Of a DNA stretch of 52,630 bases, positions 39,688 to 47,200 are shown piece after piece. Numbering within the stretch: position 1 is the stretch's first letter; each line of letters starts with the position of its first letter. Origin of the DNA: Coriobacteriia bacterium (GTDB lineage Bacteria; Actinomycetota; Coriobacteriia; Anaerosomatales; SLCP01); the NCBI GenBank assembly GCA_014859265.1, contig JACUUN010000006.1:1-52630 (forward strand). The letters are read 5' to 3'. Below the pieces are notes generated by a model. That model did not search any database. It was given only the letters and a program-made list of their open reading frames with translations, and was not told where the DNA came from. A program made the position numbers and the translations under genes.

Positions 39688-40947
<1,260 letters not shown>

Positions 40948-41016: not shown

Positions 41017-41054
41017 CGCTCGCACCGGAACGCCGTGGCGCGGCACGGTATGCC

Positions 41055-41183
41055 CTCATCTTCCAGGCTCTTACACCTGCCGAGATGTGGCACCGTGCGC
41101 TCGTTTCAGCGTCGGTTGCCGGGGCTTCACAGGGCTCGGTCCCTCCACCCACTGCGGCCGTCGCGCAGCCGCCTCTTGATGAG
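41055..41183 (-). ncRNA. SAM-I (S-box) riboswitch
   Basis: 129 nt on the minus strand upstream of metK. P1 is CTCATC (41178-41183) with GATGAG (41055-41060). The core shows TCAAGAG, GGTGGAGGGACCGAGCCC, GTGAAGCCCCGGCAACC and GGTGCCA in the consensus order. Between TCAAGAG and GGTGGAGGGA there are 23 nt (41150-41172), where about one is usual; they can fold as a small hairpin (GCGGC/GCCGC). When SAM is bound, P1 frees the terminator at 40984-41016. Confidence 0.95.
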
Positions 41184-41190
41184 CAGGGAC

Positions 41191-44890: not shown

Positions 44891-45234
44891 GGAGTGGGCT
44901 GGATGGTCGCGCGGACCGTTTCGGTTCGTGAGGAAAGTCCGGACTCCACAGGGCAGGGTGCCTGCTAACGGCAGGGCGGGGCGACCCGACGGAAAGTGCC
45001 ACAGAAAAGAAGACTCCTCCGCCCCAAGCGGAGGAAAAGCTGAAACGGTGCGGTAAGAGCGCACCAGCGTTACGGCAACGTAGCGGCTTGGCAAACCCCA
45101 CCTGGAGCAAGGGTAAATAGAAGCGATCAAGGTCGGCCCGACCGACGCTTGGGTTAGCCCGCGAGAGGCCATGGGCGACCGTGGTCCCAGATAAATGACC
45201 GTTCTCGACAGAATCCGGCTTACAGGCCCACTCC
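44891..45234 (+). ncRNA. rnpB: RNase P RNA, type A
   Basis: 344 nt. P1 pairs GGAGTGGGC (44891-44899) with GCCCACTCC (45226-45234). Conserved blocks are GAGGAAAGTCCGGACTCC near the 5' end, ACAGAAA, GGCAAACCCC and AGATAAATGACCG near the 3' end. It is the catalytic RNA that matures tRNA 5' ends; its protein partner RnpA is not in the window. Open frames through it are not genes. Confidence 0.97.
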
Positions 45235-45247
45235 GCCTGCATCAAAC

Positions 45248-45274
45248 CGGGGACGGCCGCTCCAGCCGTCCCCG
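45248..45274 (+). terminator. hairpin after rnpB
   Basis: Perfect 10-bp stem CGGGGACGGC/GCCGTCCCCG with a 7-nt loop, 13 nt after rnpB and before a convergent gene. No T-run follows. Confidence 0.6.
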
Positions 45275-45299: not shown

Positions 45300-46199
45300 T
45301 TATACCGATCTCCACTGAAACGAGCCGCAACTGGAGGGGTCGCTCTCCCCTTTCTTGGGGCACGTGTTGAGATAGATGCAGTCGTCGCAGGTCAGCGTAG
45401 TTATGTCCGATGCTCCCGCCTCGTAGGCCTTCGGTGGTTCTACGGAAGCTGATTCTTCAGCGGCATCTTCAGATTCCGATACCGCTACCTCGGCGACGAC
45501 GGCATCCGCTACCTTCGCGGCCGGGAGGATCTCCTCGAGATCCGCAAGGAGGCCGGACACTTCTTCGGGGAGCTGATCGTCCTCATCGAGCGGGGCCTCA
45601 GGGATAGCGACTACCGGCTCCGGGGGTTCGGGAGTCGTGTCCCACGGCCAGCTTTGCACGACAGACTCTGGCGGGGGCGCAGGCCCGGAGACGGGTATGC
45701 TCTCGAGGTCCTCGGCCTCGACCGGCTCTTCAGGTTCTAACTCCGGCTCGGGAGCAGCCATCACCGGTTCGGTCTCGGCAACAACGTCCGGTTCCGCGAC
45801 TTCTTCTTCCAGTGCTGCTTCTGTCTCCGGCTTCTGCTCCTCAGCAGGCCCCACGTCCGCGAGAATCGCTTCTGCGATGGGCTCTTCGACCTCAACTACC
45901 ACAGCGGCCTCGCTGCTGGTCGCGACACCCTCACCCGGAGCAGAGTCTTCTTCCGGCTCGTCGGGGGCCGAGGGAGCCTCCTCCACCGGAAGACCTTCAA
46001 CAGCGAGCGATGGAGAGGGAGCCACGATTAGAACGGGTGTAGCGGCGTCGAGATCGATTACGAAGATCTCATCCGCATCCGGTGCTCCCGCCGCTGACAT
46101 GCGCGAAACCTCGGCAAGGGCCTCCTGACGCGTGCCGAAGACGGTCGAAGCTATCAGCGCGACGGCGTCTCCGTCACGGCGAAGCAGAAAGAAACCCAT
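45300..46199 (-). CDS. acidic low-complexity protein with C-terminal Cys motif
   Basis: Not recognised. 299 aa in three parts. A conserved-looking N-terminus (1-70) reads GFFLLRRDGDAVALIASTVF and EIFVIDLDAATPVLIVAP. A middle of about 200 residues is very rich in Glu, Pro, Ala and Val, likely disordered and strongly acidic. The C-terminus has CX2CX5CX10C (CDDCIYLNTCP to SSCGSF), which could bind zinc or an Fe-S cluster. No signal peptide or membrane segment. AGGTG lies upstream of ATG 46199, and a good promoter lies at 46250-46278. Confidence 0.75.
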   Translation of the reverse strand: MGFFLLRRDGDAVALIASTVFGTRQEALAEVSRMSAAGAPDADEIFVIDLDAATPVLIVAPSPSLAVEGLPVEEAPSAPDEPEEDSAPGEGVATSSEAAVVVEVEEPIAEAILADVGPAEEQKPETEAALEEEVAEPDVVAETEPVMAAPEPELEPEEPVEAEDLESIPVSGPAPPPESVVQSWPWDTTPEPPEPVVAIPEAPLDEDDQLPEEVSGLLADLEEILPAAKVADAVVAEVAVSESEDAAEESASVEPPKAYEAGASDITTLTCDDCIYLNTCPKKGESDPSSCGSFQWRSV

Positions 46200-46249: not shown

Positions 46250-46278
46250 ATGCTAGGCTCCACGGCCGCATGCGGCAA
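46250..46278 (-). promoter_or_regulatory. promoter of the acidic Cys-motif gene
   Basis: TTGCCG (46273-46278) and TAGCAT (46250-46255) separated by exactly 17 bp on the minus strand, in the 137-bp gap after nfo. Confidence 0.55.
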
Positions 46279-46336
46279 CCGAACACCCGCTCTGAGAGAA
46301 GTTCGACACTACGAGCTGGAGACTCGGTGACACAGG

Positions 46337-47200
46337 TCACAGAACGTCGCCCCTCAGCACTTTCAATCTGCGGATGTTCTCCGCATCTTTCACCGGCACC
46401 TCGCCGGGCATCTCGATGACGACGGACACCCCACGAAGCTCCGGTCGATGCAGCATGGCCTCGAATGCTACACTGCCCATCGTTCCGTCGCCGATCCAGG
46501 CATGGCGGTCACGGTGAAACCCTCGCTCGAACATGCAGTCGTTCGCGTGTATGAGGCGTATCGCCTGGGGTCCGCATGCGCGTTCGACTTCGCTCAGAAG
46601 GATTCCCCACGCGACGTCGTGTCCGAGGTCGATGCCGGCGGCATGGGCGTGACACGTGTCCAGGCATATGCCGAGGAGTGGGCGCAGTGCGGCACAGCGC
46701 TCGAGGATGGCGCCGATCGCCGCTATCGTGCGACCGTACGTCCTACCACCACCGGCCGTGTTCTCCAGCAGGAGCCTCGTATCGGACGTCTCGCCACCAC
46801 CGGCCTGCTCGAATGCGCGTTGGACGCCCTCGGCAATCCTGTCGGCAGATGCTTCCGACTCGCCCGACGGGTGGGTACCGAGGTGCGTTGCCACACCGTT
46901 CACCCCGAGAAGTCTGCCCCTCGTGATCTCATCGGCGAGAGCGGCGATCGAACGCTTCCATAGCGCATCTTCTGCAGACGCAAGGTTGATGAGGTAGGCG
47001 GTGTGGGTGAAGGCCGACCTGATTCCTGCTGTCTCCCGCTCCTCTGCGAACCGGCGGCCCGCGTCCGAATCGGTCGGAGGACCCTCCCATCTGCGGGGGC
47101 TCTTCGCGAAGACCTGCATCGACTCGCAGCCGACCGATTTCGCATACGACACCGCCGACGGGAATCCCTTGGCAACAGACACGTGTGCACCGATGAACAC
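46337..47200 (-). CDS. nfo: endonuclease IV (AP endonuclease)
   Basis: Cleaves abasic sites in base-excision repair with a three-zinc centre. The TIM-barrel motifs carry the ligands: GAHVSVAKG at the start, THLGTHPSG, LLENTAGGG, ICLDTCHAHAAG, HANDC, DRHAWIGDG and VIEMPGE. The frame stays open to 47608, antisense to dinB, but GTG 47200 with GAGGAG just upstream begins at the family N-terminus and gives 287 aa. It is divergent from dinB, so two repair genes share an 81-bp promoter gap. Confidence 0.95.
   Translation of the reverse strand: MFIGAHVSVAKGFPSAVSYAKSVGCESMQVFAKSPRRWEGPPTDSDAGRRFAEERETAGIRSAFTHTAYLINLASAEDALWKRSIAALADEITRGRLLGVNGVATHLGTHPSGESEASADRIAEGVQRAFEQAGGGETSDTRLLLENTAGGGRTYGRTIAAIGAILERCAALRPLLGICLDTCHAHAAGIDLGHDVAWGILLSEVERACGPQAIRLIHANDCMFERGFHRDRHAWIGDGTMGSVAFEAMLHRPELRGVSVVIEMPGEVPVKDAENIRRLKVLRGDVL

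Follow-up and report, generated by a model that had tools for sequence, protein, structure and literature searches.

The FAM locus

The window analyzed here is a stretch of 52,630 nucleotides (positions 1 to 52,630 of contig JACUUN010000006.1, assembly GCA_014859265.1) from a Coriobacteriia bacterium of the order Anaerosomatales. On its reverse strand, the open reading frame 45300..46199 encodes, by translation of the window, a protein of 299 amino acids (aa) plus a stop codon, here referred to as FAM, and the gene is single-copy in this draft genome (2.34 Mb, 255 contigs). Its start codon, the ATG at 46199, is backed by relatives, and an AGGTG stretch lies 5' of it. The features of the locus are as follows:

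44891..45238, forward strand: rnpB, class A RNase P RNA, convergent neighbor of FAM (Rfam RF00010, 302.8 bits)
45248..45274, no strand assigned: 10-pair hairpin in the intergenic stretch on which rnpB and FAM converge (from a fold of that stretch)
45303..45422, reverse strand: FAM C-terminal module, residues 260 to 299, with four cysteines (kept in 62/62 proteins)
45423..46013, reverse strand: FAM acidic linker, residues 63 to 259, rich in E, A, P and V (from composition; 38 to 40% identity within the genus)
45642..45650, reverse strand: WPW motif of the linker, residues 184 to 186 (53/62 proteins exceed the shuffle maximum)
46014..46199, reverse strand: FAM N-terminal domain, residues 1 to 62, predicted beta-beta-alpha-beta (from the 57-row alignment A1 and AF2)
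46250..46280, reverse strand: promoter-like GGTTGCC-N17-CTAGCAT (from an alignment with relatives)
46337..47200, reverse strand: nfo (endonuclease IV-like), upstream of FAM and on the same strand; start approximate

The first-pass annotation had placed an acidic protein with a CX2CX5CX10C end between rnpB and nfo, and our analysis agrees on both the protein and its position; the name nfo is one that we assume from the sequence. The four cysteines, residues 271, 274, 280 and 291, are the only ones in FAM and have exactly this spacing; the C-terminal end reads CDDCIYLNTCPKKGESDPSSCGSFQWRSV. The tethered two-end layout with a linker of about 200 residues was likewise borne out, the linker comprising 197 aa with 57 D/E versus 3 K/R. 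AF2 modeled residues 1 to 68 as beta-beta-alpha-beta with a mean pLDDT of 89.6. The tail was modeled poorly (pLDDT 58), as can occur in a small module that needs metal for folding. The protein is probably cytosolic. Its full-length relatives range widely in length, from 152 to 539 aa (n = 57), with constant ends; two of them (L080 and L083, in G289 and G290) are minimal forms of just 165 and 152 aa, retaining both ends around a short linker.

A promoter of its own had also been claimed for this gene. A generic sigma-70 scan returned no promoter for FAM, missing a site that the relatives support: 29 of 57 FAM relatives carry the pattern TTGCC-N18-TA[GC][CG]AT in their 200 upstream bases (0.005 expected from base shuffles), and well-matching sites stand about 45 to 75 bases before the start codon. 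GGTTGCC-N17-CTAGCAT is invariant across nine sequences hand-chosen for alignment. We considered and rejected an alternative-sigma regulon: one-mismatch matches in six genomes numbered 22, six of them FAM's own, versus 11 in the reversed control, and we therefore read the site as gene-specific and of sigma-70 type. Three members of the window's family (G000 C24, G298 C26 and G302 C11) also have, elsewhere in their genomes, a promoter-like match to GTTGAC-N17-CTAGCAT with related spacers. On the other side of the gene, the 64-base rnpB-FAM intergenic stretch folds with -26.1 kcal/mol in all; its hairpin, which the terminator scan did not list, is perhaps a two-way terminator.

Gene order around FAM

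Neighbors were counted by tblastn with named references at 62 loci, some of which lie on short contigs. We found rnpB downstream and convergent in 52/62 loci, directly after FAM in only 10/62, so the window has the less common arrangement. Upstream, nfo lies on the same strand in 54/62 loci (a count that omits two loci with oddly placed nfo) and dinB farther away on the other strand in 55/62; glnS is near FAM in 33/62 and a DnaE-like gene in 35/62, the names DinB and DnaE-type polymerase being our own assignments from the sequences. In 28/62 loci, FAM has a divergent gene for a DnaQ-like exonuclease no more than 160 bases upstream (one dnaQ-like match is 2.9 kb off), and in 26 of these 28 that gene separates FAM from nfo, which lies beyond it. 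We presume that the exonuclease (e.g., at L101) is fused to a GIY-YIG-like nuclease part. No DnaQ-like gene was found upstream of FAM in the window.

Elsewhere in the window, a SAM (S-box) riboswitch (41053-41185, reverse strand; 47 bits versus a gathering score of 44.4) sits upstream of a reverse-strand gene at 39688-40947 that we take to be metK-like. Between 41302 and 44833, two synthetase genes flank two tRNAs in the order gltX-like, tRNA-Gln, tRNA-Glu and glnS-like, both gene names again being presumptive.

Convincing FAM relatives come from one order among the Actinomycetota genomes sampled

Relatives of FAM are present in 64 of 69 Anaerosomatales genomes by the union of searches. The whole-protein query and a 37-residue tail query each matched 62/69, and the count of 64 includes G253 and G288, in which the N-domain is cut by a contig end. 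Five genomes of the order gave no FAM match (G247, G259, G263, G270 and G271). Outside the order, no convincing relative was found in overlapping samples of the phylum (246 and 396 genomes) and of the class (197 genomes), nor did the phages, plasmids and viral contigs searched contain one. A short-reach, single-sequence contig scan returned two loci, in a Coriobacteriia metagenome-assembled genome (MAG) and an Anaerosomatales MAG. The profile search of the 396 phylum genomes gave a match at E <= 0.1 in 26 of them; four order members scored E 6e-23 or better, and the other 22, at E 8e-4 or weaker, were unconvincing. The class search gave nine weak matches outside the order (E 0.01 to 0.04).

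Five weak matches were inspected, and all were rejected. In L099 and L133 the 2-5-10 cysteine spacing is absent. In L097, L098 and L131 it is present, but only in a frame of 98 to 102 codons that opposes an open frame of 230 to 236 codons on the other strand; because of this longer frame, we take them to be shadow frames. The opposing frame presumably encodes a MurC-like protein at L097 and L098, and a repeat protein at L131.

Family searches were equally sparse. As proposed in the first-pass annotation, the two end domains were searched separately, against Pfam and PDB, and nothing significant was returned. The same holds for whole FAM and its ends in the Pfam comparison of 62 members (matches to E <= 5, HMMER filters on), for the window's protein and its 29-residue tail against NCBIfam, and for the two end alignments as queries against PDB sequences. 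Pfam zinc families matched at chance level (at most 3/62 members, best E 0.012), one N-domain matched TCAD3 at E 0.086, and the Pfam searches recognized no DNA-binding family in FAM. Among the publications listed as matches, none proved by title or abstract beginning to concern FAM. FAM appears from these searches to be a previously unnamed protein, specific to the order among the Actinomycetota genomes sampled.

The two ends are more constrained than the linker

The cysteine spacing is exactly 2-5-10 in all 62 extracted proteins. Invariant in 62/62 are the four cysteines, a T before the third of them, and a P, an F and a Q (T, P, F and Q being positions 30, 39, 45 and 46 of alignment A2), and the residue following the third cysteine is Pro in at least 90% of the proteins. 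Variable cysteines among homologues had been named as the finding that would count against a Cys module; because all four are invariant, that objection falls away. The tail could plausibly be a new binder of zinc or of Fe-S, two options between which its sequence does not discriminate.

We then compared constraint among the three parts by dN/dS, the values being rough at dS 0.9 to 2.6. Against two congeners, the last 40 codons gave 0.017 and 0.008, the N-domain 0.17 and 0.26, and the linker 0.43 and 0.32. Against G298, from another genus, the values were 0.17 (tail), 0.11 (N-domain) and 0.35 (linker). The tail's extra constraint is thus visible within the genus and absent in the G298 pair.

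A ChlI-ChlD-type ATPase gene often accompanies FAM, and two linker motifs tend to vary with it

In 48/62 loci, the gene next after FAM, on the same strand and within 183 bases, encodes a ChlI-ChlD-type AAA+/VWA ATPase (chlID). The one copy tested matched TIGR02442, putative cobaltochelatase, with 752 bits, below the cut-off of 779. Among 43 full-length copies from the 48 loci, Walker A and B patterns occur in 43/43 and the MIDAS pattern in 39/43, a partly circular result in that the copies were picked by short strings overlapping Walker A and MIDAS. CobN was found in 3/69 genomes of the order, the window's genome not among them, and the chlID motor is therefore mostly an orphan. One genome (G283) has two further chlID-like matches on its CobN contig, apart from the FAM-linked copy. 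In 14 of 62 genomes, including the window's, no chlID match was detected anywhere at E <= 1e-10 (controls positive 4/4); three of these 14 are under 90% complete, and one locus has only 301 bases of downstream room. This chelatase-type MoxR/VWA gene, which the first-pass annotation had missed, is a frequent neighbor of FAM that the window's own genome lacks. Because FAM outlives chlID, the motor cannot be its essential partner. The chlID gene may simply share an operon with FAM.

Judging by its sequence, the linker is more than a passive spacer. Conserved motifs, also overlooked in the first-pass annotation, whose layout, promoter, position and cysteines otherwise stood, became apparent when 57 full-length proteins were aligned (5 of the 62 were dropped because their N-terminus was unusable), before chlID was identified. 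Nine motifs were tabulated by chlID status, and three were then chosen for HMM and tree tests. Motifs were called by HMM scores against 620 shuffled linkers, with the same five proteins of 62 lacking a usable N-terminus. The helix motif LADALKRAAxSLESEGIVAPESV is present in 44/48 proteins with chlID versus 3/14 without, PVIMGDY in 39/48 versus 3/14, and WPW in 44/48 versus 9/14. Exceptions run both ways: G297, G303 and G304 have both the helix motif and PVIMGDY without chlID, and the helix motif is absent from four proteins with chlID, PVIMGDY from nine. At the locus of G303 (L109), the gene downstream of FAM encodes an unrelated protein that is predicted to be secreted; G304 has a similar gap at this place.

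On a rapidly built tree of three genes (58/62 rows, four lacking markers; 28/55 inner branches well supported), chlID status changes at least 5 times. The helix motif tracks chlID in 3 to 4 of the 5 independent contrasts, PVIMGDY in 2 to 3, and WPW in 2, each opposing it in 0 to 1; with only 5 such contrasts, a sign test cannot reach 0.05. A dependent two-trait model gave p values of 0.0024 (helix motif), 0.0067 (PVIMGDY) and 0.25 (WPW). When motif evolution was simulated independently of chlID, an association at least as strong as that observed arose in 0, 6 and 139 of 2000 runs, respectively. After nine-fold correction, the helix motif stays below 0.05 in both model and simulation, and PVIMGDY in the simulation only. 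The window's genus, with four genomes, keeps WPW and has neither chlID nor the helix motif nor PVIMGDY in any of them. The joint absence suggests that the helix and PVIMGDY motifs served the motor.

A candidate role for FAM

We infer from these patterns that FAM may be an order-specific adaptor. Its Cys4 module would hold one metal site, for which [4Fe-4S] is slightly favored over Zn, and its N-terminal beta-beta-alpha-beta domain would bind another partner, the long acidic linker tethering the two. Across most of the order, the orphan ChlI-ChlD-type ATPase encoded just downstream would dock at the helix and PVIMGDY motifs, with FAM as its adaptor or its substrate in CobN-free metallocofactor work. 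The window's genus would have lost the motor together with both motifs, and a motor-independent role of the two ends would stay; that both ends are selected where the motor is missing indicates such a job. We favor the metal-site adaptor because of this selection, the co-absence of motor and motifs, and the NorQ/NorD and CX2CX5C precedents described below. Taken whole, from metal site to docking and motor loss in the window's lineage, the proposal is a possible but tentative one. A more specific version, in which FAM replaces the large subunit CobN/ChlH for the orphan ChlI-ChlD as a tethered client-adaptor with a metal site, its two short linker motifs recruiting the motor to a non-tetrapyrrole metalation target, and repeated motor losses strip the motifs, in most lineages, from a protein whose ends stay selected, is doubtful enough that we would not expect it to hold.

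Other roles would account for part of the same evidence. FAM might be a structural scaffold, an acidic disordered organizer after the model of PopZ, whose Cys4 tail closes around zinc and attaches to a core protein; chlID would then be an operon neighbor and the motif correlation would reflect general linker turnover. The strongly acidic linker, the 152 to 539 aa range with constant ends, and persistence of FAM in 14 genomes without detectable chlID all suit this reading. However, general turnover fits poorly with a linker in which WPW is not significantly tied to chlID (p 0.25; 139/2000) and two other motifs are, and the Pfam zinc families match only at chance level; we consider a scaffold possible and only slightly less likely than the adaptor. 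A redox or iron sensor, in which an oxygen-sensitive Fe-S tail governs binding by the N-domain in a WhiB- or RseC-like manner, would use the CX2CX5C spacing that FAM shares with RseC and NUBP1, and one of 62 members matches WhiB weakly (E 0.016). In WhiB, however, the fourth cysteine precedes the triad, whereas in FAM it follows 10 residues after it, and the lack of a recognized DNA-binding family also speaks against a sensor, which we hold to be unlikely.

The neighborhood itself invites the idea of a DNA-repair accessory acting with Nfo, DinB and the DnaE-type polymerase (54/62, 55/62 and 35/62 loci), to which the divergent DnaQ-like gene (28/62) could be added. Against it, rnpB (52/62) and glnS (33/62) are conserved neighbors as well, so plain conserved gene order may be all that is reflected; moreover, FAM has its own promoter-like site, and the dnaQ-like gene separates it from nfo in 26 loci. 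A repair role is improbable. To return to the metal-site adaptor, the analysis equips a protein that is common in a poorly studied order with an anatomy open to testing and with a possible partner. Docking, if true, would explain the role of ChlI-ChlD-type ATPases in anaerobes that have no CobN, and docking motifs of a disordered linker would be seen to decay after motor loss in several parallel lineages.

Comparison with known systems

The FAM N-domain aligns with the PaaB fold (3egr, 4iit) over 56 residues (Z 4.2, rmsd 3.1 to 3.2), a weak match with Foldseek E 1.6 to 3.9 and 14 to 18% identity; the likeness may be only a common arrangement. Its best structural Z, 4.5, is to 8g9s, a type I-C CRISPR-Cas3 entry. 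For the tail, modules of DUF1540 type have a C-x2/3-C-x-Y ... C ... C-x-x-F layout that may resemble that of FAM; the Pfam matches of the 62 members (E <= 5, HMMER filters on) did not include DUF1540. CX2CX5C Fe-S sites are also found in WhiB, EndoIII and AddB/Cas4; Pfam Whib did not match the window's protein at E <= 5. FAM differs from CX2CX5C Fe-S sites in that its fourth cysteine comes 10 residues after the triad, followed by x-x-F-Q.

A CX2CX5C triad holds Fe-S in RseC and forms part of the NUBP1 [4Fe-4S] site (PMC11729352, PMC10108433); the triad that these proteins share with FAM lies within CX5CX2CX5C and CX13CX2CX5C, respectively. SPASM, among the matches listed, has such a triad too. 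VMAP-type MoxR-vWA ternary systems (PMC7159879) resemble the FAM locus in having a third protein beside the MoxR/vWA pair; FAM is unlike them in having one conserved place, in not being mobile and in giving no significant Pfam match. The MoxR/VWA pair NorQ/NorD inserts iron and depends on carboxylates at the surface of its client (PMC9976466). With the MoxR and ChlI-ChlD machines (NorQ-NorD, CoxD, Mg- and Co-chelatase) FAM is linked through its neighbor gene, which is of the same class by the one copy tested. FAM itself is neither the motor nor CobN/ChlH; it is a short tethered protein that outlasts the motor.
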